Below are positions 8,119-36,017 of a DNA stretch of 64,000 bases, one piece after another. Both the position numbers and the translations under genes were made by a program. This stretch comes from Mesorhizobium australicum WSM2073 (GTDB lineage Bacteria; Pseudomonadota; Alphaproteobacteria; Rhizobiales; Rhizobiaceae), in NCBI RefSeq assembly GCF_000230995.2, contig NC_019973.1, forward strand, positions 5,718,001 to 5,782,000, read 5' to 3'. Positions within the stretch are counted from its first letter, which is position 1. Every line of letters begins with the position of its first letter. Under the pieces are notes generated by a model that had not been told where the DNA came from, searched no databases, and was given only the letters and a program-made list of their open reading frames with translations.

Positions 8119-9084
8119 TTAGATGCTATGGGGGTGGAAAGCCGCCTTGGGCCCTTCGCGCCCGAACGATTGTTCACGGTGGATCACCTCCACGAAAGTA
8201 TCCACAATTGGCGACGTTTGCGAAATATTATCGCTGCCGCGGCGCCAAAATACCACGTAATTGTATCTCGCTGACGGCTCAAAAGGCACGACTTTCACAT
8301 CAAACATTTGATATTGCTGTGCAACAAATTCATTATCTATTGCAATGCCTAAACCATATGCGACAAAAGAAGCATCCAATCCTATTGTGTCCGAATGAAC
8401 CTTCGGCAATAAAGGAAGTTCTCTCCGCCCGTATGTCAATAGACCCAATTTGTTAGAAGTGTATTCTCTCTCTAGAACGATAAGGGGCTCCCCTGAGAGG
8501 TCGTCAACAGTTATGATGTCCTTTTCAGCAAGGCGATGGTCGGGTTGCAACACGCAGACACTCTTGCTTTCGGCGACTATCTTCCACTCAAAGAAGCGTT
8601 CATCTAACGGCAGCCGGGAAATCCCGATATCGGCCGCTCCCGTCACAACGCTTTGTGCTATCTCGTCGTATCGCTGCGCCCTATAATGAAATTCTAGAGT
8701 CGAATCTAGACTATTTAGCGCAAGAATTATTTTGGGGATGAGTCTCAACGAGAATATATGCGGTGCGGCAATCGTCAGGAGGTTTCTCTTGGCGCTGAAA
8801 GAGTCGGTGATTTCCCTCTCGATGTGCCCTAGCGTCTCAAAATATCTGTCTATGCGGTTGTAAATTTCGATGGCTCGCGTGGTTGGAACAAGGCCGCGGG
8901 GATCTCGCGCAAAAAGCTTCTCACCAACAGCTTCTTCAAACAGCTTGAGATGCTGGCTTACGGCCGACTGGGTAATCCCGAGTTCTCGGGCGGCCCGCCT
9001 CGTAGAACCGGTCCTCATGATCTCCCGAAAAATCTGAGCGGACCTGAACCCAGCCTTGCTGTTTCGGCCGGAAATCTCTTCCAT
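8119..9084 (-). CDS. LysR-family transcriptional regulator of the adjacent transport/catabolic locus
   Basis: 321 aa with an N-terminal winged helix-turn-helix (GSTRRAARELGITQSAVSQHLKLFE, about residues 27-51) and a LysR-type effector-binding domain. It is transcribed away from the plus-strand locus beginning at 9575, and a 46-bp AT-rich element at 9136-9181 lies just upstream of its start. Linkage to a polar amino acid ABC transporter, arginase and ornithine cyclodeaminase parallels the OccR/NocR regulators of Ti-plasmid opine catabolism. The inducer is unknown. Confidence 0.88.
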   Translation of the reverse strand: MEEISGRNSKAGFRSAQIFREIMRTGSTRRAARELGITQSAVSQHLKLFEEAVGEKLFARDPRGLVPTTRAIEIYNRIDRYFETLGHIEREITDSFSAKRNLLTIAAPHIFSLRLIPKIILALNSLDSTLEFHYRAQRYDEIAQSVVTGAADIGISRLPLDERFFEWKIVAESKSVCVLQPDHRLAEKDIITVDDLSGEPLIVLEREYTSNKLGLLTYGRRELPLLPKVHSDTIGLDASFVAYGLGIAIDNEFVAQQYQMFDVKVVPFEPSARYNYVVFWRRGSDNISQTSPIVDTFVEVIHREQSFGREGPKAAFHPHSI

Positions 9085-9135
9085 TGCCTTTGTCCGAATT
9101 GGTGGCCGCGGAGCCAGAGGCTCCGTTTGGCCGCT

Positions 9136-9181
9136 ATATCAGTAAAATTAATAGGGTGTCACAAAAACTTAATAAATTGAC
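9136..9181. promoter_or_regulatory. 46-bp regulatory repeat, copy 1 (putative LysR operator)
   Basis: This 46-bp stretch is identical to 13129-13174, and about 25 further bases downstream are partly conserved. It is AT-rich, contains ATTAATAGGGTGTCAC and ACTTAATAAATT, and lies just upstream of the divergent lysR gene. Exact repetition before two genes of the same locus suggests an operator/promoter, although a recombination scar is possible. Confidence 0.6.
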
Positions 9182-9574
9182 CGTTTTCCCGATTCTCCCC
9201 ATCGTCTGGCGTAACAAAACCAGTGGATCAGACGCATCAGAGAGAACGCTGACGTGACGCATGCAGCAACACCTATCCCCTGGCAGAGCGGATAGTTCAC
9301 AATCGAACACAGGGGACACAGCTCTAAAAATTGCGCACTATAACGTTAGAAAAGCACATATGCGGCATTCGTATTTCCGTGCCTCTGGCAGGAACTGTAC
9401 CGACCCCAGCTCGGACGTTGCGCACCCGCAACCAACTACCCGCGCTTGTCGTAAATCCGTACGGCCGATCCTTACCGGATCAAGGAACTAGCCAACACTT
9501 TCTCCGCAGTCGATCGGTTGCCACAAAAAGTGGCCGCTAATGACATTTGCCTATACAGGGGTTGATACTCAATC
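9182..9574. other. Leader region between regulatory repeat and CapA-like gene
   Basis: About 390 bp without a convincing gene. Short frames at 9261-9540 have no recognisable domain. If the promoter is in the repeat element, the transcript would have a long 5' leader. Alternatively this is remnant sequence left when the repeat was duplicated. Confidence 0.4.
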
Positions 9575-10846
9575 ATGCCTTCGCCGTTCACCCTCGCCCT
9601 CACCGGACAGTCCCTCATCTACCACGATATTCGGCATGTATCGGACGACGGCTTCGCCACGATCAAAGAACTGATCCGGCAAGCCGATGCCTCATTCACG
9701 AATTTAGAAACCACGATACTCGGCCGGCATGGTGGGTGGCCGATGAAAGGCACCTATTTCCAGTGCTCTCCACCTGTCGTGTTAGATAATTTGAAGGATA
9801 TTGGCTTTAGCGCACTGGCTCTTTCCAATAATCATGCGTTCGATCTTGGGCCCGCAGGAGTGCTTTCGACACTTGAGGAAGTAGACGAGCGTGAGTTTCT
9901 GCGTGCAGGAATTGGCGTTGACGCCAGTGACGCGAGCAAAGCCGGCATCAAGCAACTCGGCAAGAGGAAGGTCGCCCTCATCGCGATGGATGCCGGACCA
10001 GGGCCAGCCACAATGTACGCTGAAAATGCGGCAGGTACCCGTCCCGCTCGACCGGGGGTGAACAAACTCGATGTCTCGCGGGTATTCGAGGTTGACGATG
10101 AGAAATTCGCGAACCTGCGTTCCATTCAGGAAACGTTTTTAAGCAACTCTATGGAGCGCGGAACCTACACGCAGCCGGACGATCCTCGCGAACTGACATC
10201 GTCCGATGAAATCGACTTTTACGGAACCATTTTTCGCCGATCCTCCGAGAACTGCCGAAGGATCATCTTCAACGAGCAAAGTTTACGAGGTCAGCTCGCC
10301 GCAATCCGGAAGGCCTCGTTGGCCGGTGCCTTTGTCATCGCCTATCTTCATCATCATCATTGGGAACCAGATTGGCGCGAGGTTCCCGAATGGGTTCAAT
10401 TCTTCGCGCGATCCTGCATTGATGCGGGAGCGAATGCGTTCGCCAGCCACGGCGCACCGGTGCTGCAGCCGATCGAAATCTACCGCGGGGCTCCGATCTT
10501 CTACGGATTGGGAAATTTCCTGTTTCATCTACCCGAAGGTGAGGACGAATGGAGCTCACCGGATATCTGGAAAAGTATCGTCGCGACGTGCAGCTTCGAT
10601 GGCAACAACCACTTGGAGTCGATCTACCTCGCTCCAATCGTGATTGGAGGGGAGCAGCGGCTGAGCAGCAACAGGTATCATGAGCGTCTTGTGCCCGTGC
10701 CCGCATCAAAAGAGCTGGCCGGTTCAATGCTCGAAGACCTATCTCGACGCTCGCAAAAGTATGGAACCGAAATAGTGCTGGAAGATGCTCGCGTTCTTCT
10801 GCCAAAAGCTAATTCCCGCAGCGTCGAGGTCGCCGCCAGCAGGTAA
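9575..10846 (+). CDS. CapA/PgsA-family metallophosphoesterase-like protein
   Basis: 423 aa resembling the PGA_cap (CapA/PgsA) family. It has LTGQSLIYHDIR at the start, NLETTI near residue 46, ALSNNHAFDLG near 86, YLHHHHWEPD near 260 and FYGLGNFLF near 309, the conserved Asn/His metal-site motifs of this fold. Classic CapA is membrane-bound in poly-gamma-glutamate capsule synthesis. This one has no obvious signal peptide or membrane segment, so capsule synthesis is unlikely. It is the first plus-strand gene of the LysR-linked locus; substrate unknown. Confidence 0.8.
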   Translation: MPSPFTLALTGQSLIYHDIRHVSDDGFATIKELIRQADASFTNLETTILGRHGGWPMKGTYFQCSPPVVLDNLKDIGFSALALSNNHAFDLGPAGVLSTLEEVDEREFLRAGIGVDASDASKAGIKQLGKRKVALIAMDAGPGPATMYAENAAGTRPARPGVNKLDVSRVFEVDDEKFANLRSIQETFLSNSMERGTYTQPDDPRELTSSDEIDFYGTIFRRSSENCRRIIFNEQSLRGQLAAIRKASLAGAFVIAYLHHHHWEPDWREVPEWVQFFARSCIDAGANAFASHGAPVLQPIEIYRGAPIFYGLGNFLFHLPEGEDEWSSPDIWKSIVATCSFDGNNHLESIYLAPIVIGGEQRLSSNRYHERLVPVPASKELAGSMLEDLSRRSQKYGTEIVLEDARVLLPKANSRSVEVAASR

Positions 10847-10978
10847 CGTCGTCCATGCACGTCAACCTGGCCCGCATCCTGATGATCGTGTCGTATAGTG
10901 CCAATGCACTGATGACCGGGCGCCCCCTTACAGCCGAACGGATCCAAATGCGCACTTGGACAATGAGGAGAACCGAAC

Positions 10979-12424
10979 ATGCATAACGATGGGCTGGGCG
11001 TCTATGAAATCGCCCGGCGCGTGGACACCAAGAGCGCCGACTACTGTGCGCTCAGCGACCGCATCTGGGCCATGCCGGAACTCGCCTTCGAGGAGCATCG
11101 CGCGGTCGCTGAGCAGATCGCCTTGCTGGAGCACGAAGGCTTTCGCATCACCAAAAAGCTCTGCGGCATGGCAACTGCCTTCGTGGCGGAACATGGAAGC
11201 GGTAGCCCAACAGTCGGTTTTCTGGGGGAGTTCGATGCGCTGCCGGCTCTCGGGCAAGTTTCGGGCATAACCGAGCGCATGCCTACCGCGGAGGGCGCAT
11301 CTGGGCATGGTTGCGGGCACAATCTTCTCGGTTCCGGATCTGCGCTCGCAGCCGTGGCCTTGAAGGATGCGCTTGCATCGGGCGCCATCGCGGGCACGGT
11401 GCGCTATTACGGCTGCCCGGCGGAGGAGAGCGGATCGGGCAAGACTTTCATGGCACGGGCCGGTCTCTTCGATGATCTCGATGCCGCCTTCTGCTGGCAT
11501 CCAAACGTCGTCAACGAGGTGCAGTCCACCTCGTTTCTCGCGTGCATTCAGGCTAGCTTCCGCTTCACGGGTCAGGCGTCGCATGCGGCGGTTTCTCCCC
11601 ATCTTGGCCGCAGCGCGCTCGACGCGGTGGAGCTGATGAATGTGGGCGTAAATTACATGCGCGAGCACATGGCGTCGGATGCGCGCGTCCACTATGCCAT
11701 TACGAATACGGGTGGCGATGCGCCAAACGTGGTACAGGCTTTTGCGGAATCACTCTACCTGGTGCGTTCGCCGCATTTGCCGGATGCGGAGCACCTCTTC
11801 CAGCGCGTCAAGAAGATCGCCGATGGCGCCGCGCTGATGACGGAAACCACCGTTGAGGTGCAGATCATGGATGCAAACTCGAACGTTCTGCCTAACAAAG
11901 TGCTGCAGGAGGTTATGTACGAAAACATGAGTCGCCTGGGCGGCCCGGGCTTCGACGATACGGATTATGCCTTCGCCGAACAACTGCGGAAGAACGCGTT
12001 TACGAACGAGGAGATTGTGGCGAGCGTTGCGCTCTACGACCGTTCGCTGGCGAGCCAGGTGCTGCATGACGGGCTACTTCCCATGCCTGCGCGCGAAGGG
12101 ATGATGATGGGCAGCACTGACGTCGGCGACGTGAGCTGGATCGTGCCCACGGTTCAGTGCAGCACTGCCTGCTTCGCTATAGGTACGCCGTTCCACACTT
12201 GGCAGCTCGTCACGCAAGGGAATCTGCCTGCAGCCCATAAGGGAATGGTGCTCGCGGCGAAAGCAATGGCGACCACCGCGGCAGATTGCCTGCGCAATCC
12301 CGATCTTATCGCCCGGGCGAAAGCGGAATTGAAGGAGCGTACTGGCGGGCGGCGCTACACTTGCCCAATTCCGCCCGAGATCACGGTCGACAACCTGCGC
12401 GCTAAGGCAGCGGCTTTTGCATAG
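10979..12424 (+). CDS. M20-family amidohydrolase (AbgB-like)
   Basis: 481 aa dinuclear-metal amidohydrolase/aminoacylase. Visible motifs are FLGEFDALPALGQ, the metal site GASGHGCGHNLLG near residue 105, PAEESGSGK near 145 and a dimerisation segment with SFRFTGQASHAAVSPHLGRS. The architecture is that of AbgB (p-aminobenzoyl-glutamate hydrolase subunit) and related amide hydrolases that release amino acids from N-acyl conjugates. A GAGGAG precedes the ATG. In this locus it may hydrolyse an imported amino-acid conjugate; substrate inferred only from context. Confidence 0.85.
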   Translation: MHNDGLGVYEIARRVDTKSADYCALSDRIWAMPELAFEEHRAVAEQIALLEHEGFRITKKLCGMATAFVAEHGSGSPTVGFLGEFDALPALGQVSGITERMPTAEGASGHGCGHNLLGSGSALAAVALKDALASGAIAGTVRYYGCPAEESGSGKTFMARAGLFDDLDAAFCWHPNVVNEVQSTSFLACIQASFRFTGQASHAAVSPHLGRSALDAVELMNVGVNYMREHMASDARVHYAITNTGGDAPNVVQAFAESLYLVRSPHLPDAEHLFQRVKKIADGAALMTETTVEVQIMDANSNVLPNKVLQEVMYENMSRLGGPGFDDTDYAFAEQLRKNAFTNEEIVASVALYDRSLASQVLHDGLLPMPAREGMMMGSTDVGDVSWIVPTVQCSTACFAIGTPFHTWQLVTQGNLPAAHKGMVLAAKAMATTAADCLRNPDLIARAKAELKERTGGRRYTCPIPPEITVDNLRAKAAAFA

Positions 12425-12746
12425 GTGCAAGAAGTCCTTACGCTCGGCGGCCTCGCTTGCAGAGTTTCACTATATTTATGGCGGACAACGCTCGATCACA
12501 GTTGCGTTCATCAAGTTCCGCGAATAGCGTCGCAATGACATCGACTGTCTGCCGCGCCCCGGGGGTTAGCAGAGCAGGGAAAACGCAGCGCGTTCAGCGA
12601 TGAATGTCCCCAGACCCTCCTTCTCTGCGCTCGCGCAAATGGTCTGCATTGAGCCAGCGGTTCGCCTCGGCCACCTCTCATGAATTTCTCACCCCAGCTC
12701 TGCGCCAAGCTTCGAGTTTTTGGTCCTCCGCTTGGCGATCACAGCG
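12425..12746. other. Intergenic region without a supported gene
   Basis: About 320 bp separating the M20 gene from the IS256-type remnant. Only short frames lacking domains are seen. Confidence 0.4.
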
Positions 12747-13130
12747 CTAGGCTAAGTCGTGGGGCGCACGTCCTAAACCTGCCCTGACGGCCGGATGGCC
12801 GTCGGAGACCGCGAACTCGACATTGGCAAGTCCGCGCTGCTTGAGCCCTGTCGCGAACGCTCGCCAGTAATGGTGCTGCCACTCCCATAGCCAGCTCGAC
12901 CACCAGCACCTAGCGCAGGCCCCAGTCCATTCTGATCGCCCACAGCACCGCCTGGCTGGATGACCCGGCCAGGCGGGTCCGAAGCGCCGCGTCCATAATG
13001 AGGAACCAAGCAAGATGTCGGCAAGCCGTCGCTCAAAGATGCTTGCAGGCTGCTGATCAGGCCTGCCAGGCAGCAGCCCTGCATCGCGGTTCGTCATCCA
13101 GCCATTTGCCTGCCTCGTGTGTGTGGCCAT
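12747..13130 (-). pseudogene. IS256/mutator-type transposase remnant
   Basis: The minus strand contains recognisable pieces of a mutator-family transposase in different frames. RRLADILLG lies near the 5' side, and WRAFATGLKQRGLANVEF followed by AVSDGHPAV matches the W-R-x-F-L-x-x-L-K-x-R-G-L...SD signature around the second catalytic Asp. The intervening DNA is frameshifted and both ends are missing. It sits between the M20 gene and the second 46-bp element, so an insertion accompanied assembly of this locus. Confidence 0.65.
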
Positions 13131-13174
13131 ATCAGTAAAATTAATAGGGTGTCACAAAAACTTAATAAATTGAC
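13129..13174. promoter_or_regulatory. 46-bp regulatory repeat, copy 2
   Basis: Exact copy of 9136-9181, ending 29 bp before the first ATG of the racemase-like gene. Because this copy has no regulator gene beside it, it most likely carries the operator/promoter for the racemase-ABC-arginase operon. Confidence 0.6.
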
Positions 13175-13203
13175 GGTTTTGGCGATTCCTCCCATCGTTT
13201 CGC

Positions 13204-14394
13204 ATGCAAACAAGCAATAAAAAGCGGTTGGGAAAAACGTCAGAACCTATGTGCGCGTTAACGTCTATTGCGCCGGTGCAGAGCAAAAAGGCGGCGTCCC
13301 GGGAGGCCTGGTACGAGATCGACCTCGGCGCGATCAGGCACAATTACCGTCAGCTGCGTAGGCATCTTCCCCGGACAGTGAAGATTTTCGCCTGCTTAAA
13401 GCGCAATGCATATGGCTGTGGAGCGGGACCTGTCGCCCGCACACTGGCAACAGAGGGGGCTGACGGCTTTGCTGTCGCAACCTTGCCCGATGCTATGGCC
13501 ATCCGGGAAATGGGCATCGATCTCCCGGTTTTGCTTTATCCCGGTCCTCTACCGACATCGGCGAAAACAATTGAAGCGCTCGGACTCACCGTTACCGTTT
13601 CCAGCCTCGATGAGCTGGAGTCCTGGCGCGCCGCCATGAGCGTCACCCGTATTTTCGTCAAGGCGGATCTCGGGTTCTTCAGGGCTGGGGCCACGCCGCA
13701 GGAGATAGGCCGGCTTCTCGCAGCCGCGCACGTCTGCAGCGACGTTGAAGTACAGGGGCTCTACGCCCATCTCAGCGAGCTGCCCACATCAGTAACTTCG
13801 GATGCTAGCGAGCAATTTTCCCGCCTGCAGCGGATTCTACAGGATGCCGAGGCGTCCGGCACCCGTCCCCCGATCATTATGATGTCGAGTACTGCAGGTG
13901 TGCTTCGGCATCCCGCGATGGATCTCGATGCCGTCGATCCCGGGGCCCTGTTTATCGGTCTTCCCGAGACGGATCGACCCATGCGGGCCGTCACTCTGCG
14001 GCCGGCGCTCAAGGCCATTTCGACATGCCTCGTTTCCGTCAAGCGGATCGATGCTTCTCTCGGCCCTATACCAGACATACCCGGTTTTCGGTCGGGAATG
14101 ACCATCGGCGTCCTAGGTATGGGATGGGGGGATGGCCTTCCGCGTCACGTGCCAGCCCAGGCCGAGGCGCTGGTGAGGGGGCAGCGCGCGCGCCTGCTCC
14201 CTCCCGCGCATCTCGAGCACCTGCGCATTGATCTGACGGACGTGCCTGATGCGAGATTTGGCGACCAAGTGCTCCTGCTCGGACAGCAAGCGCACCAGAC
14301 CATCAGTCACGAGGAAGTCGCCGCTCAATGGGGCACAGACCTCATCGGTCTCTATGCCCAGCTCCGCGACCACATCCCGCGCGTCTATGTCTGA
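13204..14394 (+). CDS. Alanine racemase-like fold-type III PLP protein with altered active site
   Basis: 396 aa. The N-terminal barrel has the PLP-lysine motif ACLKRNAYGCG near residue 65, VKADLGFFRAG near 155 and MMSSTAGVLRHP near 225. The C-terminal domain is diverged. Where alanine racemase has GYADG with the catalytic tyrosine (Tyr265 in the Geobacillus enzyme), this protein reads GWGDG, and the usual GR-x-C-MDQ segment is replaced by PPAHLEHLRID. It may therefore catalyse another PLP reaction or act on an unusual amino acid. First gene of the second half of the locus. The true start may be ATG 13249, since the first ATG has no ribosome binding site. Confidence 0.8.
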   Translation: MQTSNKKRLGKTSEPMCALTSIAPVQSKKAASREAWYEIDLGAIRHNYRQLRRHLPRTVKIFACLKRNAYGCGAGPVARTLATEGADGFAVATLPDAMAIREMGIDLPVLLYPGPLPTSAKTIEALGLTVTVSSLDELESWRAAMSVTRIFVKADLGFFRAGATPQEIGRLLAAAHVCSDVEVQGLYAHLSELPTSVTSDASEQFSRLQRILQDAEASGTRPPIIMMSSTAGVLRHPAMDLDAVDPGALFIGLPETDRPMRAVTLRPALKAISTCLVSVKRIDASLGPIPDIPGFRSGMTIGVLGMGWGDGLPRHVPAQAEALVRGQRARLLPPAHLEHLRIDLTDVPDARFGDQVLLLGQQAHQTISHEEVAAQWGTDLIGLYAQLRDHIPRVYV

Positions 14395-14494
14395 GACATT
14401 GGCGCAGAAATAGAGGAAACGAAATGAAGGCGCCCAGAACAGTGCTGTTGCTCTCGCCCTTTCATGTTGTGCTCGGCAATACGGGCGCACAGCA

Positions 14495-15307
14495 ATGACG
14501 GCCACGATCATGGCAATTCCTCGCCACGCGGTGACGGACACGGCCGCGGAGGCGATCCATGTCCAGGACTTGCACAAGAAATTTGGCGCCCTTCATGTGT
14601 TGAAGGGGGTCTCGCTATCTGCACGCGACGGCGATGTGGTGGCGATTATCGGGGGCAGCGGCTCCGGCAAATCCACTTTACTTCGCTGCATCAACTGCCT
14701 GGAAAACCCCACCAGCGGCGTTATCAGGGTGAACGGCGAGGAAATACGTCTCAAGCCTGACGGAAATGGCAGCACCCTCCCGGCGGACCGAAAGCAGATT
14801 GAACGTGTACGTTCCCGGCTCGGCATGGTCTTTCAGAGCTTCAATCTCTGGACCCACATGACCTTGATCGAAAATGTGATCGAGGTTCCGGTCCATGTGC
14901 TTGGCGTCAAGCGTGAAATGGCGATCATCGAAGCCGAGAAACTGCTTGCAAGAGTGGGGCTTCTGGAAAAACGGCACGTATACCCGGCATTTCTATCCGG
15001 CGGACAGCAGCAGCGCGGCGCGATCGCACGCGCTCTCGCGGTCCAGCCACGCGTCATGCTCTTTGACGAACCGACTTCATCACTCGATCCCGAACTCATC
15101 GGTGAGGTTCTGGGCGTAATCGGCGATTTGGCCCGCGAAGGTCGCACCATGATCCTGGTCACGCATGAAATGAAATTTGCCCGCGAGGTCGCGACCCGCG
15201 TGGTTTTTCTCCACGAGGGCCGCGTCGAGGAAGAAGGGTCACCAGACGCAATCTTCGGATCTCCGAAATCAGAGCGGCTTCAACAATTCATCCGCAGAGT
15301 GGGCTAG
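14495..15307 (+). CDS. Polar amino acid/opine ABC transporter ATP-binding protein (HisP/OccP-like)
   Basis: 270-aa cytoplasmic ABC ATPase. It has Walker A GGSGSGKST near residue 54, Q-loop MVFQSFNLW, signature LSGGQQQRGAIARAL (one residue off the usual QRVAIARAL), Walker B VMLFDEPTSSLDPE and switch VTHEMKFA. Its order with the binding protein and two permeases (P-T-Q-M) is that of Ti-plasmid occ/noc and his/art operons. Confidence 0.93.
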   Translation: MTATIMAIPRHAVTDTAAEAIHVQDLHKKFGALHVLKGVSLSARDGDVVAIIGGSGSGKSTLLRCINCLENPTSGVIRVNGEEIRLKPDGNGSTLPADRKQIERVRSRLGMVFQSFNLWTHMTLIENVIEVPVHVLGVKREMAIIEAEKLLARVGLLEKRHVYPAFLSGGQQQRGAIARALAVQPRVMLFDEPTSSLDPELIGEVLGVIGDLAREGRTMILVTHEMKFAREVATRVVFLHEGRVEEEGSPDAIFGSPKSERLQQFIRRVG

Positions 15308-15351
15308 CGCCGGGAAAACAGAGTAAACCATCTGACTTATAGGGGAAAACA

Positions 15352-16134: not shown

Positions 16135-16266
16135 AGAGGAAATTCTCCTATTACGTAGACCCTCGCAATACTTCTCCTGTTGAGTCGGAGGCAGGCGGCC
16201 TCCTTCGTCACGCACCAGTGAACGGCAGGCTCTTGGCGAGGGTCAATCCTCAAGGTGGAGGCGTTC

Positions 16267-17825: not shown

Positions 17826-17869
17826 CGCGCCGAACCAGCGCGCTGCCAGCAGCAATAGGGAGCGGCGAC

Positions 17870-18790: not shown

Positions 18791-18793
18791 ACC

Positions 18794-20850: not shown

Positions 20851-20865
20851 CAAATAGGATTGGAA

Positions 20866-21669
20866 ATGTCGCAAACCAGATCGGTCTATCAGTTCAACTC
20901 CGCAATCGTTCGCGAACCCTCGATCTCGGTCGTCAACGGCCTACGCGCCGATGATCGGGGAGGTCCTACCTATGAAGGCGTCAAGGGCGAGCACGACGCA
21001 TACGTTGCGTCCTTGCGGCATGCAGGTGTCGAAGTGAGCGTCCTGCCGTCTCTTGAGGCCTTTCCAGACTCTTTGTTTGTCGAAGACCCGGCGCTCGTTT
21101 TCACCGGGGGCGCCATCCTGCTCCGTCCCGGCGCGCCAAGCCGGGTCGCCGAGACCGCGGAGCTCGCGCCGATCCTGCGCGATATGTTCGACACCGTGCT
21201 AGAACTCCCTACCCCGGGACAAGCCGACGGCGGGGATATCATGTACACCCCAAATAGCGTCCTGATAGGCCTGTCCGATCGCACCGACAAGGCCGGGGCA
21301 GAGGCCCTTGTCTCCTGTATCGAGCAACTCGGCGGGAAGGCCCAGATTGCCGAGACTCCGAAAGGCGTTCTGCATTTCAAGACGGCCTCCTCGCTGCTCG
21401 ACGATGAAACCGTGATTTCGACCGCTGCCCTCGCGAAGGCTTCCGTATTCAAGGAATTCCGCCAGTTCATCGTCCCGGAAGGCGAAGAGCCTGCGGCGAA
21501 CGTGCTGCGCGTCAACGACATCGTCATGGTCAGCGCGGGCTACCCGCGCACGATTGAGATGCTCGAAAAGGCGAATTACAAGGTCGTGCCTCTGAAGACC
21601 GCCGAGATCGAGAGGATCGATGCCGGGCTCTCCTGTATGTCGCTGCGCTGGTACCGGGACTGCAGGTAG
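20866..21669 (+). CDS. Dimethylarginine dimethylaminohydrolase (DDAH)-like enzyme
   Basis: 267 aa, five-bladed amidino-group hydrolase fold. Signature segments are PDSLFVEDPALVFTGGAILL near residue 60, ADGGDIMY near 118, the catalytic His in GVLHFKTASSLL near 165 and the catalytic Cys in GLSCMSLRWY near the C-terminus. DDAH hydrolyses N-methylated arginines to citrulline plus methylamines. It is the last gene of the operon; ATG 20866 is preceded by AGGA. Close to a PRMT-like gene 530 bp downstream. Confidence 0.85.
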   Translation: MSQTRSVYQFNSAIVREPSISVVNGLRADDRGGPTYEGVKGEHDAYVASLRHAGVEVSVLPSLEAFPDSLFVEDPALVFTGGAILLRPGAPSRVAETAELAPILRDMFDTVLELPTPGQADGGDIMYTPNSVLIGLSDRTDKAGAEALVSCIEQLGGKAQIAETPKGVLHFKTASSLLDDETVISTAALAKASVFKEFRQFIVPEGEEPAANVLRVNDIVMVSAGYPRTIEMLEKANYKVVPLKTAEIERIDAGLSCMSLRWYRDCR

Positions 21670-21921
21670 GTCATTCAAACCCCCCTTGTTGCCGCCCCAG
21701 ACGTCCAGACGACAAACAGAACTCGTGCTTTCCCCTCGATCGTGATTGTCGCGCCGCCACGCTTTCTCTCCGGGTAAAGCGACGACGGACTTATGTTAGA
21801 AACCGTATTTTACCCAGAGAATTGTCGATCTCATGTCGGCTCGTCGCATCGCCGACCTCCTATTCCGCGACACGCTGGAGCTTGAGGCGACCACCAGCTG
21901 TAAGACAGCGAAAGATGACCG
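21670..21921. other. Intergenic region between DDAH-like gene and NifA site
   Basis: No gene seen. A short plus-strand frame from 21822 has no recognisable domain and overlaps the NifA site downstream. I found no clear terminator hairpin after the DDAH-like gene. Confidence 0.4.
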
Positions 21922-21937
21922 TGTCGTGGATTCGACA
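21922..21937 (+). promoter_or_regulatory. NifA upstream activator sequence
   Basis: TGTCGTGGATTCGACA fits TGT-N10-ACA exactly. It lies about 140 bp upstream of the start predicted from the -24/-12 element at 22045-22060, a normal distance for NifA sites. Confidence 0.7.
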
Positions 21938-22044
21938 AATCGGCACTGAGTTCAGGTACCCGGCGCATTCCGAAAAACGAGATCAGAGCACTCTCTTGCA
22001 GGCGACGGAAATGGCAGGTGGAGGTCTTTAGCGCTTGCGTGCCT

Positions 22045-22060
22045 TGGCACCATTCTTGCT
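22045..22060 (+). promoter_or_regulatory. Sigma-54 (-24/-12) promoter of the PRMT-like gene
   Basis: TGGCACCATTCTTGCT matches the RpoN consensus TGGCAC-N5-TTGC exactly, with GG and GC 10 nt apart. It points toward the methyltransferase starting at 22200. With the upstream NifA site it predicts expression in nitrogen-fixing bacteroids. Confidence 0.78.
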
Positions 22061-22199
22061 GCCTCCCCTTCGCGAACCGCAACACTCATTCGTTCGTCTC
22101 AGAGGCTGACAGGGAGCCCTACAAACCGCGCGACGTCGTCGATCGCCGTCCGCGATGAGTGGCTTATTCACCCGCCACAGGGGTTCAGAAGGGTATTAA

Positions 22200-23081
22200 A
22201 TGCACAAAATCCCGTCCCGCGCTCACGCAGATTCCCAGGTTCCCAACTGGCATTTCAGAATGATGCGCGACTCCGCACGAAATGCAGCAATAGAGGCGGC
22301 CATAGCATCCTGTAATCTCAGAGGAAAGACCGTCGTGGAAATCGGGACCGGGGCTGGCCTTCCGGCGATGCTCTTCGCCAGGCATGGCGCCCGAAAGGTA
22401 TTCACATGCGAGATGGATGAGCGAATTGCTGCGGCAGCGCGGGAGATTATCCGGAACAACGATTTGCAGGATCGCATCGTGGTGATTGCAAAGTCCTCAA
22501 GGCAAGCAATTCAGGACGGCGACCTTCCTTCGGCGCCTGACATAATTTTTACGGAAACATTGGATTCTGGGGTAGTTGGTGAGGGATATGAATCGATAGC
22601 GGAAGACATCCGCCAAATCGCCAGTCCTGCTACAGTAGTGATGCCAGATCGGATTCAGCAATTCGGGTTCCTCTGCACCGACGTGCAAGCCTTTGAGGAC
22701 AATTCCGTCTTTAACCAATGCGGATTCGATCTTTCGGGATTTAACCTGTTTGCCGAACGTTCATATTTTTCGGTGATCCAGACGCTACATGATCCGGTAT
22801 GTCTCTCGCCAACCGTTCTTTTCAGGAGCTATGATTATTTAGATCCAAGCGCTCTGGACCCGGTAGAACATCAAGTTACAGTTCACAGCTCTGGCCTTTG
22901 CCATGGAATGACCTCATATTTTGACGCCCATTTTGGGAAATTTCTCATCTCTTCTAGAGAGCGGAAGAGTCATTGGCGAACGGCTTTTCACCCCCTACGA
23001 GTACCTATGCCGGTCGAATCTGGGCGGAGATACTATTTGAGAGGTGATAAATCTGGGTCGATCGATTTGGTTTCGACATGA
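22200..23081 (+). CDS. PRMT7-like protein arginine methyltransferase
   Basis: 293 aa class I SAM methyltransferase. Motif I is VEIGTGAGLPAML (about 46-58) with an acidic motif at CEMDE. A double-E-type loop TETLDSGVVGEG (about 118-129) resembles the PRMT7 loop, and HWRTAFHPL near residue 263 resembles the PRMT THW loop. PRMTs transfer methyl groups from SAM to arginine guanidino nitrogens of proteins and are rare in bacteria; methylation of free arginine is also possible. A NifA/sigma-54 promoter lies 140 bp upstream, and a DDAH-like gene that would cleave methylarginine precedes it. Confidence 0.75.
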   Translation: MHKIPSRAHADSQVPNWHFRMMRDSARNAAIEAAIASCNLRGKTVVEIGTGAGLPAMLFARHGARKVFTCEMDERIAAAAREIIRNNDLQDRIVVIAKSSRQAIQDGDLPSAPDIIFTETLDSGVVGEGYESIAEDIRQIASPATVVMPDRIQQFGFLCTDVQAFEDNSVFNQCGFDLSGFNLFAERSYFSVIQTLHDPVCLSPTVLFRSYDYLDPSALDPVEHQVTVHSSGLCHGMTSYFDAHFGKFLISSRERKSHWRTAFHPLRVPMPVESGRRYYLRGDKSGSIDLVST

Positions 23082-23805
23082 AGTGCAGGGCAAGCGACAA
23101 GCGGCTCTTGGTTCATGTGCTGAAGGTTCTGCTGACAGGGCGGCTGCAGGGGGGCTGGTGATGCTAACGTTACCTGATCCCCCGTGAGCACAGGCCATCA
23201 CGATCCAGTATTGAAGATACAACCTCTGACCGGACCTTTTACCGGGCAGACTCGGCTACCGCTCCGCCTGTTTGGGTAACATGCTGATAACGGGTCAACA
23301 TGCTGGGATTGTCGGCGATGCAGGCGCCGTTCGCTTCTCCGATGTCGAGCTCAATCAGGGCTTCGGTCCGGGGGATCTTGACGCGCGAGATCAAAGCGAT
23401 CACCGGCTTTACAGACGTGTCTTCCCATTTTGGCGACATGTGATCATTGCCCGGGACAGGCAAGCTCGACTGGGCGACACCGGTCAACGCGTGAGCAACT
23501 AATGTGCACACCCAAGGTGGGCAGACGACTGTGGACTGATGTCCAACACTCCTTGCGCAGCTTATTAATTAATGTCCAAAGTGTGTTAATTTTCAAGGTG
23601 CAGCCTACACTTGCGATTTAGCCTAACTTTTACATTAGTACTGATTGCGATGTGATATAACTTTGGCGAAGCCGGCCTGCCGGGTCAGCAGCACAAAGCC
23701 GCAGCCTCGGATGCCCTCACTCGTCCGCGCGTGCGCCTCAGATGCGTCTATAGACGGAGCCATGCGCAAACTGCCGGAGGCTGTGCGTCGAGCAACAAGA
23801 GCGAA
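23082..23805. other. Intergenic stretch between two methyltransferase-like genes
   Basis: About 720 bp with only weak short frames (for example 23239-23511 minus). The part from 23560 to 23660 is strongly AT-rich (TTAATTAATG, GTGTTAATTTTC), suggesting a promoter for the following gene. I found no -24/-12 element with correct GG-N10-GC spacing here. Confidence 0.4.
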
Positions 23806-24837
23806 ATGGAACAGCAGGTGGAAGACTTTTTCAAGGACTGCGATAAGGCACCGCGATTGAATGAAATGGCCGATTTCTTTTCGGCGACCGCAGCAGGCCG
23901 ATCAGGAGCCCCGATCAAAGTTCCGAGCGTGGATGCGCGCCTTTTCCAAGGGGATGTGTCGCTGCAAAGCTTCACCAGCGTGCATCGCCAGATCTGGGGC
24001 CGCTTCGACCCTCACTATCATGCCAGCATTCCTTATCGTCTCGAGGAGGAGGTTCGAGTTGGCGATGCCTTCTTGCGATATGCAGACGCTATCGCGGATG
24101 AGACCGTCCCGGCTCGGTTCTATCTGCTGGGGGCCGCCGAAGGCACACTCGCTCGAACGCTTGCCCAGCTGGGCAACGGCAAGATTCAAACCCTTTCATG
24201 CAGTCCCAATAAAGAAAACGAGGAAAGCTTCTTTCTCCACGGACGGCCCGCGCATGCAACATTCTTCCTCGGCCCATTTCATCACTTGACCCGGAGCAGA
24301 ATGGTGGGAACGTCGGCGCTCAGGCACTTTGCCGACGGATTCGACATCATCTTGGAGGACACCACATTTCAAATGTATTCGCCCAATCGAAAGGCGCAGA
24401 TTGGCTTTGTGAAACATCATTTGAAAGACGGCGGGATATTCTTCTTCTTCGAAAAATTTCGGCAAGACGACGATATCTCATACCTGAGCCGGGAGCTACA
24501 GAAAGACTACGGATATAAGGCACGCTTCTTCACTCAGGACGATATCAAAAATAAGACTGAATCCATTCTTAAGCAAATGAACTTCAATGAGACGACGCTA
24601 TCTGAAATGTCAGAGTCGGTGGCCGCACACTTCAAATACGGATGCGTGACATGGAATTCCGGCAATTTCTACACACTTGCCGCTAGCAACAACGCGGACA
24701 ATCTTCGGCGTGTAATTTCGGCGATGGCCCCGCCCTGCATTCCAAATGAATACGTCTATACGGAAACTCCGGCTTCGCTGCCGGGATTGGCCTTCGAACC
24801 CCCGCCGTTCCGCCGCCTGGCAGCGTCCGGCAGATGA
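23806..24837 (+). CDS. Putative SAM-dependent methyltransferase-like protein
   Basis: 343 aa from ATG 23806 (AAGAG upstream; an earlier in-frame ATG gives a basic unconserved extension). A Rossmann-type core is visible: RFYLLGAAEGTLARTLAQLG near residue 103, FDIILEDTTFQMY near 180 and HLKDGGIFFFFEKF near 205. This has the shape of class I methyltransferase motifs I, IV and VI, although the motif I glycine pattern is loose (LLGAAEG). No close family recognised. It lies between the PRMT-like gene and a large unknown gene on the same strand. Confidence 0.6.
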   Translation: MEQQVEDFFKDCDKAPRLNEMADFFSATAAGRSGAPIKVPSVDARLFQGDVSLQSFTSVHRQIWGRFDPHYHASIPYRLEEEVRVGDAFLRYADAIADETVPARFYLLGAAEGTLARTLAQLGNGKIQTLSCSPNKENEESFFLHGRPAHATFFLGPFHHLTRSRMVGTSALRHFADGFDIILEDTTFQMYSPNRKAQIGFVKHHLKDGGIFFFFEKFRQDDDISYLSRELQKDYGYKARFFTQDDIKNKTESILKQMNFNETTLSEMSESVAAHFKYGCVTWNSGNFYTLAASNNADNLRRVISAMAPPCIPNEYVYTETPASLPGLAFEPPPFRRLAASGR

Positions 24838-25265
24838 GCGAAGCCGGCCAACGACCAACGCGTCCTAACATGCCATCATTTACGACCAGTACATTCTTGG
24901 CCAGTGGCTTGCCTCCAATATCCGTAGGTACTGGTATTTCATGTCCGCTACATGGCTCGCGCTTTCTTGAAAACAACAGCGTACAGACAGTCACCTCATT
25001 ACTGTTGTCGGGAAGGATGACCCATTGTTCACCAGCGGCGCAGTCGGCTTTATTGCGGTTCCCGTCGATCGGCCAGTGCGCATCCAAACCCTTGCAACGG
25101 GGTTTGGATTTGTTGTGTATGGTTTGACTGCATTTGCCGGCGATACGCTGCTGCCCCGGCCGGGCTCCCGTATTTCGGAGTTGTCATGGTCGTGGTTTGG
25201 ACAGTCGGTATTCTCGTCTGTCCACCAAGCAAAACGGTAGCCCAACAGCCACCGGATGACGTGTA
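24838..25265. other. Intergenic region with possible -24/-12 element
   Basis: A sequence TTGGCCAGTGGCTTGCC (24897-24913) has the GG-N10-GC spacing of sigma-54 promoters and points to the gene at 25266, but I see no TGT-N10-ACA upstream. A minus-strand frame (25087-24683) and a hydrophobic plus-strand frame (25025-25240) are open here but neither has a recognisable domain. Confidence 0.35.
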
Positions 25266-26693
25266 ATGAAATCGCCATCTCCAAAACCCGTCGCTGAAGC
25301 ATTGGCTTGGCTTGTGCCACACATCTCGCGTTACTCGACGCTTCCGACACGTGCGTATGCGCATGTCGCTTATGACGCTAAACCCGCCGCCGCCGATCCT
25401 GTCCGTATGCATGCTCTAGAGCAGATGGAATTGCGACTTGCAGATTGTGCCTCTCGTCTGGGCTACGGGCATCCGCAGATTGAAAAACTCGGTACACAGC
25501 TTCGAAGCCGACCGGTCATTCAGACCGGCCCACATTGTTACCTGGCCTTTGAACCCGATGCGTTCTACACGCATATCTTTAGTGCCATGGGGCTGCGCTC
25601 CCATAAAGACAGCTGGTATGTGACTCATTCGAGTTCAACCGTTAAATTCCAAGAAAGCGACAAGAAAGGCCCCGGTTGGCTGCGGCTTGGAGGTCAGCAC
25701 TTCAATCTCTTCGGGCTGTCAAACAGAAAAATGGGTCGACTCAGTGTTTGCGGACGTGATGCGCCGCAGCGGTTTGCTCTGACGAGCGCCAAACAGACGG
25801 GGATCGCGAGCCAATTGGCCGAGCGATTGAAAAGAGCCCTGCCCGATGACGAGTTTCTCTCGGCCGCCGATGCTATCAAGACAGCCAATCAGAGCCTCTG
25901 GCGCCGTTTCTTCGCATCGGATCTTCACTTGTTGCAGTTCGACGATTGGGACGTGGGCGACCTAGTCGCCCAGCATCTTCGCGACCCGTCGTCCTGGCTT
26001 TCGTCAACGCTGTTTGGACCAAGCTCTTTTGCGAAGAGGCTGCTCAATCATTTCGCATCGTTTGATTGCGGCCAATGGGCCGACTGGGCAAAGACGACAA
26101 CCGACTTCTTTTGGCATTTTTCAGGGGGGCGCATATTTCCCCTGCGGCTGCGCGATGGCCTGTTTTTGAACGAAAGCGGGACCTTCTCTGTACAGTGCGC
26201 ACCTGACGCGCTTCTCCAATCGTTGAACGAGCGTGAAATCATACCCAGTATGCTCCTGTCATTCTTTGTGACATCGATACTCCCTGGAGTGCGGGTGCTC
26301 GGCGGCAGTCGCCAGATCGTTTACTATCCGATTATGCGCTATGCCTTGCTGTCTACTCTCTCTGAGTTTCCGTCACCTGCAAATCGTAGCTTGTCCGTCT
26401 CGCTGGGGTCTGACCAAGAGCCGAGTCTGTGGGGGCATCGTACGATCTCGCCGGGTCGAATCGATCCGTTCAGTCTTATGACCCAGCTTGGCTGCGATTT
26501 TGGGCGGCTAATCGACTGCTATGGCGAGATACCTTTGAGCGAGGCATGGGGCAGCTTGCCAGCATTCGCCGGCGATCCCCTCTGGCAAACGTTGTGCAAA
26601 CGGCTTGCAAAGGAAACAGCATTGGAGGATCGCCCCATTTGGCTCGCTGGCGCTCAGCAGCCAAAACAGGATGTAATTGGCCCCTCCCGTTGA
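25266..26693 (+). CDS. Large protein of unknown function in the methyltransferase cluster
   Basis: 475 aa, no family recognised. It has no signal peptide or membrane segment. It is rich in aromatic and His residues and carries blocks such as VIQTGPHCYLAFEPDAFYTH (about 84-103), LRLGGQHFNLFGLSNRKMGR (about 134-153) and IVYYPIMRY near residue 360. The length, steady codon use and absence of frameshifts argue for a real gene. Between methyltransferase-like genes it may be an enzyme modifying or assembling a small molecule; the QTGPH patch faintly recalls BshC-type ligases, too weakly for a call. Confidence 0.7.
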   Translation: MKSPSPKPVAEALAWLVPHISRYSTLPTRAYAHVAYDAKPAAADPVRMHALEQMELRLADCASRLGYGHPQIEKLGTQLRSRPVIQTGPHCYLAFEPDAFYTHIFSAMGLRSHKDSWYVTHSSSTVKFQESDKKGPGWLRLGGQHFNLFGLSNRKMGRLSVCGRDAPQRFALTSAKQTGIASQLAERLKRALPDDEFLSAADAIKTANQSLWRRFFASDLHLLQFDDWDVGDLVAQHLRDPSSWLSSTLFGPSSFAKRLLNHFASFDCGQWADWAKTTTDFFWHFSGGRIFPLRLRDGLFLNESGTFSVQCAPDALLQSLNEREIIPSMLLSFFVTSILPGVRVLGGSRQIVYYPIMRYALLSTLSEFPSPANRSLSVSLGSDQEPSLWGHRTISPGRIDPFSLMTQLGCDFGRLIDCYGEIPLSEAWGSLPAFAGDPLWQTLCKRLAKETALEDRPIWLAGAQQPKQDVIGPSR

Positions 26694-27103
26694 TCTGTGA
26701 GCGCGAAGCTGACGCCGTTCAGATTTGGTCATTTCACAGAACGCATGGACATCGCTGTCGGGCCTTCCATCGCCGATGCGCTTTGAAGACCTGTGCGAGC
26801 CATGCGTGCGGATTGGCGATTGCGGACGGCCGAATTATGCTGACAGAAATGGCCTTCGGCGTCAGGTGGTCAAGTGCTTGCAGAAAGCCAGCGATGTCGT
26901 TCGGCGCGCGATCGAGTTGTTAAGGCATCGAAGTTCGTGAGCCGCGCTTGTTCGCTGATGCACGTTCGCGCTTCGCGCTGCTGACTCCTACAGGCCGATA
27001 TTGCGAATAGGTAGAACCGATCATAGACCCTTATGCCGCCAAGCTAGCTTGTTCCGCTCACAACAACCTCACGGTTGTTTCAATGAGGCTCTGCCAGGCT
27101 TTA
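26694..27103. other. Convergent intergenic region
   Basis: About 400 bp between a plus-strand and a minus-strand gene. Short frames only; no clear hairpin-plus-T-run terminator identified. Confidence 0.4.
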
Positions 27104-27895
27104 TCATCCGCCTCGAGGGGCTTGCCTTACATGAGTTGGAGATAACTCATTTAATAGACCGGTCGTCGCTCGGCCGTAAACAGAGATATGACGTTTGGAC
27201 TGTTCGGTGAACGCACCTCCTGCCCAATCTCCCCAACGCTCCGCCAGCTTGAGCCCTACGCATTCGGCCATGGTATCGAGTTCCTGATGATAGACGTAAC
27301 GAACGCGATTGGGCAATCGTTTGACCGACGTACCAGAAAACCAGAGGAGGGTTGAGACCAAGTTTTGGGTTAGGGGATCGTGCACATCAGCAGCGATGAT
27401 CGTATTCTCATGATCCACAACGAGCGTGGAAATTTTCTGGCCGTTGACGAAACCATCCAAGGGCGGCACGCCTACATCTATCACCAAATTCCCTCCATCA
27501 TCTAACGCCTCCACGGCAGATCGGAGGCAAGCTATTTGCGCTTCGCGCGTGACGGCCTGCGTGAATGTATTCCAAACGCAATACACCAAGTTGTAGCGTT
27601 GCTCCGATCTAAATCTTGAAATATCTGCCTTCCAAAACTTAATCAGATCAGTACGCTTGGCGAGAAGGTTCAACATGCTGTCCGAATTGTCGATACCTTC
27701 GACCTTGACGCCGCGCTCGCTCAACGGCACCGCCACGCGTCCGTCGCCAATGCCAAGTTCAAGAGCAGTCCCTCCGCTGGAAAATCGCTGAAGAAAGGCG
27801 ACAGTCTCGCCAACCTCATCATTCTTACCTCGCAGCAATGTAAGTAGCTCATACATTGCCGACCAATTTTCGTCGTAGATGAATTCGTCAGCCAT
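27104..27895 (-). CDS. Class I SAM-dependent methyltransferase under NifA/sigma-54 control
   Basis: 263 aa. Motif I reads ALELGIGDGRVAVPLSERG (about 44-62), followed by acidic VEGIDNSDSML, motif IV YNLVYCVWNTFTQ and motif VI ALDDGGNLVIDVG. This is a small-molecule-type methyltransferase fold; substrate unknown. GGAGGAG precedes the ATG. Its upstream region has a -24/-12 promoter and two NifA sites at standard distances, the most complete nif-type promoter in the window, so strong induction in nodules is expected. Confidence 0.88.
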   Translation of the reverse strand: MADEFIYDENWSAMYELLTLLRGKNDEVGETVAFLQRFSSGGTALELGIGDGRVAVPLSERGVKVEGIDNSDSMLNLLAKRTDLIKFWKADISRFRSEQRYNLVYCVWNTFTQAVTREAQIACLRSAVEALDDGGNLVIDVGVPPLDGFVNGQKISTLVVDHENTIIAADVHDPLTQNLVSTLLWFSGTSVKRLPNRVRYVYHQELDTMAECVGLKLAERWGDWAGGAFTEQSKRHISVYGRATTGLLNELSPTHVRQAPRGG

Positions 27896-28060
27896 TTCTC
27901 CTCCTGTGAGATTGATTTAAGGATTTTAGCAATTACTTCGTATGCAATCGGCTCGGAAATAACGCCGCTCGTTCCGCAACAGGAAATGGTCGAAGGGTGT
28001 CGCTCTGGTCGGGCTCCGGACATCGAACGGCTCCGTTGCGGAGTGAACGCGGATTCAAAA

Positions 28061-28077
28061 TGCAAGAGCCAAGCCAA
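28061..28077 (-). promoter_or_regulatory. Sigma-54 (-24/-12) promoter of the minus-strand methyltransferase
   Basis: The minus strand reads TTGGCTTGGCTCTTGCA, with GG and GC 10 nt apart and a TTGCA -12 box. It lies about 165 bp upstream of the ATG at 27895 and downstream of two NifA sites. Confidence 0.75.
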
Positions 28078-28129
28078 TTCAAAGAGTCGGTTTAGTTCAC
28101 CATATTGGCTCTTAGTCTCCGCTTCTGTC

Positions 28130-28145
28130 TGTTTGCAACGACACA
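28130..28145 (-). promoter_or_regulatory. NifA upstream activator sequence 1
   Basis: TGTTTGCAACGACACA fits TGT-N10-ACA, centred about 88 bp upstream of the predicted start of transcription. Confidence 0.7.
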
Positions 28146-28149
28146 GCTT

Positions 28150-28165
28150 TGTCAGGGTTCCGACA
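28150..28165 (-). promoter_or_regulatory. NifA upstream activator sequence 2
   Basis: TGTCAGGGTTCCGACA fits TGT-N10-ACA, 20 bp (about two helical turns) from the first site. Tandem NifA sites are typical of strongly activated nif/fix promoters. Confidence 0.7.
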
Positions 28166-30772: not shown

Positions 30773-31108
30773 ATGCCCACTCCACACAACCCTCCTGCTG
30801 CGGTGCGGCGCGTGCTGCGCAAGCTTGGGGCTGACATTCATGATGCCCGTCGACGCCGACGGCTGCCGATGGCGGTGGTAGCCGAGCGCGCCTTCACTTC
30901 TCGCTCGACTCTGCAAAGGGTCGAAGCCGGGGACACCAACGTCAGCGTCGGCATCTATGCCGGCGTCCTGCAGGCGCTCGGCCTCCTCGAGGGCCTAGGC
31001 CAGGTCGCCGACATCAGCAACGACAGCGTCGGTCAGGCGCTCGCCAGTGCCGACCTGCCCAAGCATGTCCACCTCCAGCGGCCAACCGGATCGTCGCGCG
31101 ATGGCTGA
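30773..31108 (+). CDS. HipB-like XRE-family antitoxin/repressor
   Basis: 111 aa with a helix-turn-helix: DIHDARRRRRLPMAVVAERAF, then TSRSTLQRVEAGDTNVSVG (about residues 41-60). The last codons overlap the start of the HipA-like kinase, the typical antitoxin-toxin order. Expected to repress the operon at the palindrome upstream and to sequester HipA. Confidence 0.85.
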   Translation: MPTPHNPPAAVRRVLRKLGADIHDARRRRRLPMAVVAERAFTSRSTLQRVEAGDTNVSVGIYAGVLQALGLLEGLGQVADISNDSVGQALASADLPKHVHLQRPTGSSRDG

Positions 31109-35963: not shown

Positions 35964-36017
35964 GATGGCCGGATCGGCTGTCACATTTAATTCCAACGTT
36001 TGAAGCGAGGATATTCC

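Follow-up and report, generated by a model that had tools for sequence, protein, structure and literature searches.

The described systems closest to the locus treated here are the rhizopine genes of rhizobia and the opine regulons of Ti plasmids. The locus occupies positions 8119 to 27895 of a 64-kb stretch of DNA from Mesorhizobium australicum WSM2073 (bases 5,718,001 to 5,782,000 of its single 6,200,534-base contig; hereafter the window). The rhizopines scyllo-inosamine and 3-O-methyl-scyllo-inosamine of Sinorhizobium meliloti L5-30 are products of mos genes and are broken down by moc genes, the two sets reportedly being linked on the Sym plasmid; to our knowledge, only these inositol rhizopines have known genes for both synthesis and breakdown. 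The Ti-plasmid noc regulon combines a LysR-type regulator with a His-type ATP-binding cassette (ABC) transporter, an opine-binding protein, opine oxidase, arginase, and ornithine cyclodeaminase (OCD). Rhizolotine, a tetrahydropyrimidine riboside, is an opine-like, nodule-specific metabolite of Rhizobium loti, of the Mesorhizobium lineage, and we know of no genes linked to it. Synthesis of the inositol rhizopines is described as being under NifA control, and the same account states that their role in nature has yet to be elucidated (PMC6668481). Searches of the Creative Commons-licensed PubMed Central literature returned no paper on rhizolotine, on methylarginine, DDAH, or arginine methyltransferases in rhizobia, or on methylarginine together with opine dehydrogenase.

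With moderate confidence, we propose that the WSM2073 locus is a modular, NifA-controlled rhizopine- or opine-like system built on methylarginine and carried on a symbiosis island. An earlier note, made from the same DNA, had suggested NifA-controlled synthesis with linked (methyl)arginine catabolism. All the genes it named are present where it placed them, and its proposal is partly supported: comparative genomics strongly favors the core, through linkage in six lineages, a near-identical distribution over 146 genomes, and opine-type genes in relatives. As in mos/moc, a symbiotic element unites predicted NifA-type control of synthesis with linked catabolic genes served by a regulator and a transporter of their own. 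The enzymes differ, being of arginine/guanidino rather than inositol type; mos/moc-type inositol families were not among the locus genes in general domain scans, in which no mos/moc query was run. LysR, the His-type ABC transporter, arginase, and OCD are shared with Ti noc/occ, and relatives add an opine dehydrogenase, an OoxA-like oxidase, and, in a metagenome-assembled genome (MAG), a NocT-type binding protein. Unlike noc/occ, the window locus lacks the dehydrogenase and oxidase, adds a protein arginine methyltransferase (PRMT), DDAH, and CtlX, and has a NifA/sigma-54 synthesis promoter, and its product would be made by the bacterium, not in plant tissue. With rhizolotine the proposed compound would share its nodule specificity, Mesorhizobium lineage, and opine-like character, and would differ in chemistry.

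WSM2073 is reported to have acquired a symbiosis island of 455.7 kb, the donor being M. ciceri bv. biserrulae WSM1271 (PMC4062642). In the WSM1271 locus, which runs from the end of the M20 gene to position 32348, the window genes are 100% identical, and the PGA_cap and M20 genes likewise. Relatives were surveyed in 146 genomes of the genus, 33 of a second genus of the family (taken for Sinorhizobium), and a family-wide draw of 394. PRMT was found in 7 of the 146 (E ≤ 1e-40) and in 2 of the 33. The genus carriers form four lineages (window/WSM1271/G429/B2-7-2; G486; G461, which is WSM3859; and G490, the MAG), and G552 and G557 of the second genus bring the total to six. OCD, CtlX, and DDAH genes lie near PRMT, within about 20 kb, in all nine genomes and thus in six of six lineages; G429 has the full gene set at 100% identity, OCD and CtlX included. 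Putative catabolic and synthesis genes thus lie together on one symbiotic element. PRMT proteins of the other lineages are 73 to 78% identical to that of the window, and gene order and orientation vary: PRMT begins 0.5 kb after DDAH in the window, in G490 the two converge with about 80 bp between them, and in G557 they are about 20 kb apart. In the family-wide draw, PRMT occurred in 3 of 394 genomes, namely, the window's own and two distant homologues (29 to 33% identity).

The distribution of DDAH (E ≤ 1e-60) within the genus is nearly that of PRMT: 8 of the 146 genomes, comprising the seven PRMT loci and G522. The hypergeometric probability of this co-occurrence is 3.3e-11 raw, 3e-7 with near-identical islands collapsed, and 2e-5 if only 50 genomes, an assumed number, carried islands. 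G522 itself has a DDAH copy with two internal stops and, about 8 kb apart, a 64% CtlX homologue (L108, 1160 to 10570); no PRMT was found in the 20 kb examined, and the pair is possibly a remnant of the system. Ratios of nonsynonymous to synonymous substitution (dN/dS) were 0.08 to 0.21 for PRMT, DDAH, CtlX, and OCD over 23 pairs (the window against each other lineage, plus G490 against G552, with the frameshifted G461 OCD excluded), so these genes look to be under constraint. The window's nearest partner changes from gene to gene (CtlX, 85% to G461; DDAH, 84% to G486; PRMT, 78% to G552), which suggests shuffling of the genes without loss of their linkage.

The window contains one perfect TGGCAC-N5-TTGCW sequence, with 0.09 expected. 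This sigma-54 −24/−12 promoter match (22045 to 22060, plus strand, zero mismatches) stands 155 bp before the PRMT start at 22200, and a NifA-type upstream activator site, TGT-N10-ACA (21922 to 21937, plus strand), lies another 123 bp upstream, as a like site does before PRMT in B2-7-2 and G490. On the minus strand, before the second methyltransferase gene starting at 27895, a sigma-54-like site with two mismatches (28061 to 28076) is preceded at 69 and 89 bp by two NifA-type sites (28130 to 28145 and 28150 to 28165). Because sigma-54 matches with up to two mismatches are common on their own (41 in the window versus 34 expected), this site was at first set aside; it was reinstated by a joint scan for such matches, with GG and GC kept, that have a NifA site 40 to 200 bp upstream. 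Sixty windows simulated with a first-order Markov model gave 0.2 joint places on average and never more than 2, whereas the actual window has four: PRMT, 27895 (with its two NifA sites), 46525, and 59571. A NifA/sigma-54 promoter at 27895 is thus plausible from the joint test despite the two mismatches. The NifA/sigma-54 promoters claimed earlier for both methyltransferase genes are thereby upheld for 22200 and stand in weaker form for 27895, which is also how the predicted sites compare to the control known for rhizopine synthesis genes. Across lineages, PRMT is preceded in four of six by a sigma-54 site having no more than one mismatch, where about 0.011 would be expected per 400 bp, an expectation that includes the sites themselves. 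In G490, PRMT and an opine dehydrogenase gene diverge from one common NifA site, and each gene has a separate sigma-54 site with one mismatch. No sigma-54 site (up to two mismatches, 400 bp) was found before the window's LysR, PGA_cap, M20, racemase, ABC ATPase, or arginase genes. As for the remaining joint places, double NifA sites with a sigma-54-like promoter at 46447 to 46540 stand before what we read by eye as P450/terpene-type genes, and a similar arrangement at 59495 to 59586 is followed on the plus strand only by short open reading frames (ORFs).

The 22200 product (22200 to 23081, plus strand) is a PRMT-fold protein, as had been claimed, and a candidate arginine/guanidino N-methyltransferase, SznE-like by family and by the neighborhood of a relative. 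In the PDB it is closest to 8rbk ("MGC151858 protein," 3e-17), PRMT9 (6e-17), and PRMT7 (2e-15). Both glutamates of the double-E loop (E119 and E128) and H258-W259 are invariant in 17 aligned sequences, window included, and the same 17 carry EIGTGAGL with three single-residue variants; we take these segments to be the PRMT double-E loop, HW loop, and motif I. The protein passes no NCBIfam cutoff. In a tree of 47 rows (matches P0047 to P0058 excluded), the rhizobial proteins group with two from Paraburkholderia in a separate, supported clade of 20 rows (100/98). The streptozotocin pathway is described as using SznE, an arginine-guanidino methyltransferase, to provide SznF with N-omega-methyl-arginine (PMC11705231). 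A 45% homologue of the 22200 protein in Methylobacterium adjoins a SznF homologue (E of 1e-112 to SznF structures), and the activity proposed here is the arginine-methylating one of SznE. The two differ in that no SznF homologue was found here and the rhizobial clade is separate; the likeness is drawn by way of the family and the Methylobacterium neighborhood. A nitrosourea pathway of the SznF type was considered and rejected, as no SznF homologue was found in the genome or locus: nothing appeared in the genome at E up to 10, in a search run without a positive control, none was detected in the window by tblastn, and among the window and 109 further loci SznF occurred only in the Methylobacterium one.

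The putative uptake and breakdown genes lie beside PRMT. A LysR-type regulator gene (8119 to 9084, minus strand; Pfam LysR_substrate/HTH_1) diverges from the plus-strand genes for these functions, and its homologues (70 to 81%) occur near PGA_cap in G486, G465, G466, G437, and G494. First in the row is a PGA_cap-family protein related to the peptide epimerase MslH (9575 to 10846; PF09587), whose best PDB matches are 8ith/8gq9 (E of 5e-33; entry name, poly-gamma-glutamate synthesis protein), which we take to be MslH structures; it scores 134.8 bits against the MslH NCBIfam equivalog model, under the cutoff of 700, and might carry out an opening or an epimerizing step. An M20 amidohydrolase resembling HmrA and Xaa-Arg dipeptidase (10979 to 12424; TIGR01891 over cutoff; PDB matches 3ram, E of 3e-40, and Xaa-Arg dipeptidase 7yh4, E of 9e-38) is a candidate for cleaving the amide bond of a conjugate. 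It is followed by an alanine-racemase-family racemase (13204 to 14394; TIGR00492 over cutoff) and a His/LAO-type ABC uptake system (14495 to 17825; ATPase, 14495 to 15307; binding protein, 15352 to 16134; permeases, 16255 to 17019 and 16977 to 17825). The binding protein is nearest to lysine/arginine/ornithine (LAO)-binding proteins (E of 1e-48), then to octopine-binding protein (6e-34) and nopaline-binding NocT (1e-26). Arginase (17777 to 18790; TIGR01229, 323 bits versus a cutoff of 228), OCD, which converts ornithine to proline (18794 to 19867; PRK07589, 582 versus 350), and the citrulline hydrolase CtlX (19864 to 20850; NF046062, 417.5 bits versus an equivalog cutoff of 334) complete the series together with a DDAH-like methylarginine hydrolase (20866 to 21669, from ATG 20866; the listed ORF begins at TTG 20860). 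The last scores 200 bits against the dimethylargininase equivalog NF045658, short of the cutoff of 450, and is hence called DDAH-like only. It aligns over nearly its full length with the bacterial DDAH structures 3rhy/1h70 (E of about 1e-47), and Cys and His are retained, with Asp at the Glu position of 1h70, so that the Cys/His/acidic set, which we take to be catalytic, is present. In series, DDAH, CtlX, and OCD lead from methylarginine to citrulline, ornithine, and proline; with SznE-like methylation, synthesis and breakdown would thus meet at one compound.

Positions 23806 to 26693, overlooked in the earlier note, probably encode a conjugating ("cap") module. The 23806 protein (23806 to 24837, plus strand, from ATG 23806; the listed ORF begins at GTG 23731) is a class I methyltransferase with generic class I fold matches only. 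The 25266 protein (25266 to 26693, plus strand) has a BshC-like fold, that of class I aminoacyl-tRNA synthetases, and belongs to no Pfam or NCBIfam family; by its fold it might be the amide ligase of the module. It differs from BshC/MshC of bacillithiol biosynthesis in sharing 9% identity, in having no Pfam BshC match (none at E ≤ 0.5 for the window protein and none among 50 aligned members, so that the fold alone agrees), and in that its family adjoins a methyltransferase gene in the plasmid loci examined. The structure alignments comprised the window protein with 49 of 203 and 53 of 445 reported homologues, of each of which 120 were listed. A second small methyltransferase (27104 to 27895, minus strand; Methyltransf_25) has homologues that adjoin those of 25266/23806 in G490, G465, and G466; G466 is like G465, with its 23806 homologue in two pieces. 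In strain R7A, Msi321 is reported as a NifA2-dependent methyltransferase (PMC3538637). Possession of the cap genes goes with that of a breakdown gene: the close 25266 family occurs in nine genus genomes, all nine of which carry a PGA_cap homologue (72 to 100%; the stop in the G490 gene is the terminal one); PGA_cap at 68% or more, a threshold chosen post hoc, occurs in 14 of 146 genomes, and at E ≤ 1e-90 in 52 of 146.

Related arrangements were seen elsewhere. Beside nifA-nifB of S. meliloti RCAM1750 (CP050513; L021, 10678 to 19392), an ATP-grasp gene has a sigma-54 site without mismatches, and a 23806/25266-like pair has NifA sites and a sigma-54 site with one mismatch. On two Rhizobium conjugative plasmids (L022 and L023), a 23806/25266-type pair (42 to 44%) is followed by a GNAT acetyltransferase gene, in one case next to traA and in the other next to a LuxR regulator gene. 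In the window, serine hydroxymethyltransferase, S-adenosylmethionine synthetase, and a PfkB (adenosine-kinase-like) protein are encoded in a row at 34608 to 38293, a methyl-supply set that would suit methylation in bacteroids; metK of R7A is reported to be NifA2 dependent in nodules (PMC3538637). Two HipA_C-domain proteins are also encoded in the window (31047 to 32348 and 60213 to 61628).

Relatives carry opine-type versions of the locus. An opine dehydrogenase gene is linked to PRMT in three lineages, G490, G552, and G461 (about 15 kb away in the last), and within the genus such a gene (E ≤ 1e-80) occurs in 2 of 146 genomes, both PRMT carriers (chance, 0.002). In G490, the opine dehydrogenase (PF02317, 140 bits versus a cutoff of 30) is encoded divergently from PRMT, and opine oxidase A and B genes lie within the locus there and in G552. 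Oxidase subunit A of G490 is 66 to 68% identical to proteins annotated OoxA on Agrobacterium-group plasmids, and on the same contig a binding protein matches nopaline-binding NocT (E of 4e-110), with Ile for Met in the alignment at what we take to be NocT position 117. G552 resembles G490 at 77% in opine dehydrogenase, 80% in oxidase B, and 75% in oxidase A; its opine dehydrogenase gene has a NifA site upstream and no sigma-54 match. In G461, an opine dehydrogenase (75%) accompanies a broken catabolic operon, and the oxidase genes are more distant (37 to 41%). Beyond these genera, a plasmid of the beta-rhizobium Paraburkholderia sprentiae WSM5005 that also bears nod and nif genes encodes a 71% opine dehydrogenase homologue. 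Upstream of this gene are two NifA-type sites and a sigma-54 site with two mismatches; genes for an oxidase, a LysR regulator, and a His-type ABC transporter lie 10 to 18 kb from it, and no PRMT was found on the plasmid. Opine dehydrogenase matched 285 plasmid records at E ≤ 1e-5, mostly below 60% identity, so outside the genus it is not confined to PRMT loci.

Domain scans of the window's locus genes found no opine dehydrogenase (PF02317) and no two-subunit opine oxidase, and the window genome has no homologue of the G490 opine dehydrogenase at E ≤ 1e-80. The absence of opine oxidases noted earlier therefore holds for the window locus and does not extend to G490 and G552. Similarly, the transporter called opine-type is LAO-type in the window, whose binding protein is not of the NocT/OccJ type; the G490 protein is NocT-like. 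A plain noc regulon was rejected as an explanation, there being neither oxidase nor opine-binding protein in the locus. Since opine oxidases do occur in relatives, their absence here seems to reflect an exchange of cap chemistry and not a trait of the system at large. On pAt1 of Agrobacterium fabrum Kin001 (L104, 8152 to 10110), an opine dehydrogenase gene (57% to that of G490) lies beside an aminotransferase gene and MATE exporter genes. In G557 (L060, 6709 to 15045), PRMT lies beside an ornithine-decarboxylase-like gene, a PALP (cysteine-synthase-like) gene, and ATP-grasp ligase genes; upstream of a minus-strand gene, itself followed by a D-Ala-D-Ala-ligase-like gene, stand a NifA site and a sigma-54 site without mismatches, and this set is perhaps a third cap chemistry.

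From the gene families, promoter sites, linkage, and co-occurrence observed, we infer a substrate and product, a cap, nodule expression, export, and use by kin as follows. In bacteroids, NifA and sigma-54 would turn on 22200, whose product would N-methylate the guanidino group of arginine. The products of 23806, 25266, and 27104 would then cap the methylarginine, most likely by an amide bond to an amino-acid-like unit, and the capped compound would leave the nodule. Free-living carriers of the same island could import it through the LAO-type ABC system under LysR control and remove the cap by means of the dipeptidase-like M20 enzyme, with the MslH-like protein and the racemase assisting. The DDAH-like enzyme would remove methylamine to give citrulline, from which CtlX would yield ornithine and OCD proline, while arginase might deal with unmethylated arginine. 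More tentatively, and with somewhat less conviction than the proposal for this locus, we suggest that several rhizobial genera hold a family of arginine-derived nodule rhizopines, true opines among them, in which a constant methylarginine core, made by PRMT and broken down by DDAH, CtlX, and OCD, bears exchangeable caps, each making module being inherited with its matching removing module. The pairs would be opine dehydrogenase with opine oxidase, the BshC-like ligase with the M20 and MslH-like proteins, and others; an N-methyl-nopaline-like compound would be the opine dehydrogenase product after guanidino methylation.

Several observations weigh against the methylarginine rhizopine model. Within the window, 23806 and 25266 have no sigma-54 site (up to two mismatches, 400 bp), 23806 starting 0.7 kb past the end of PRMT. 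Allowing three mismatches, no sigma-54 match is seen within 400 bp of PRMT in G461 or G557 (in G461, a site with one mismatch lies at −675), and PRMT of G552 and G486 has a sigma-54 site with no NifA site in 400 bp. OCD of G461 is split into frames and its arginase gene is decayed. The 25266 family occurs without PRMT in G434, G465, and G466, so the two modules need not share one molecule, and it is less tightly tied to M20 (found at E ≤ 1e-120 in six of the nine genomes and 19 of 146 overall; broken in G465 and G466). PRMT homologues are also present in Rhizobium, Sinorhizobium, and Paraburkholderia, the linkage claim covering the six lineages examined, and DDAH, OCD, and CtlX are not beside the Methylobacterium homologue. 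Linkage on mobile islands can, moreover, come from hitchhiking. Automated annotation names the PRMT homologues ribosomal protein L11 methyltransferase, because Pfam PrmA is narrowly passed (24.4 versus 22 bits, residues 35 to 102).

Among the alternatives, the one that survives best, though we consider it unlikely, is that the operon serves only to scavenge arginine, citrulline, methylarginine, and Xaa-Arg dipeptides of soil origin or released by plant protein turnover, the adjacent methyltransferases being unrelated to it. A DDAH-like protein below the equivalog cutoff would fit plain methylarginine scavenging too, as would the LAO-type transporter; a 70% DDAH homologue stands without PRMT and the other neighbors on pSymB of S. 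meliloti ml21, and DDAH homologues (E ≤ 1e-90) occur in 19 of 247 sampled family genomes, that of the window included. Within the genus, however, the DDAH clade is found only beside PRMT, bar one broken copy, and the opine dehydrogenase linked to PRMT in three lineages is a synthetic enzyme that has no place in scavenging. We give still less credence to N-methylarginine as a nodule signal or inhibitor, for example one that curbs the formation of nitric oxide from arginine, or as an antimetabolite directed at competitors, with DDAH and its partners for self-protection or recycling. Methylarginines are classic nitric-oxide-synthase inhibitors, which DDAH removes. The transporter, racemase, amidohydrolase, and proline route exceed what self-protection needs, and the opine dehydrogenase/oxidase version is left unexplained. 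SznE does serve the streptozotocin pathway, as described (PMC11705231), but the SznF search of this genome, which had no positive control, returned no homologue. Methylation of proteins, plant nodule peptides, or a ribosomal protein, with linkage due to hitchhiking on islands that gather symbiosis cargo, is very improbable despite the clear PRMT family membership and the PrmA score over cutoff, as the pairing persists while order and orientation change across lineages, and the nearest relative with a telling neighborhood adjoins SznF, whose known partner SznE supplies methylated free arginine.

If the methylarginine rhizopine model is true, it would define a second, chemically unrelated, and modular class of rhizopines, with opine dehydrogenases under NifA-type promoters. 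Opine-style private nutrition would then have arisen inside the nitrogen-fixing symbiosis itself, and nodule bacteria may feed their kin. The rhizopine concept would become testable in a field system in which the island has moved between species, from WSM1271 to WSM2073, and a new chemistry for plant-to-microbe signaling would be on offer.

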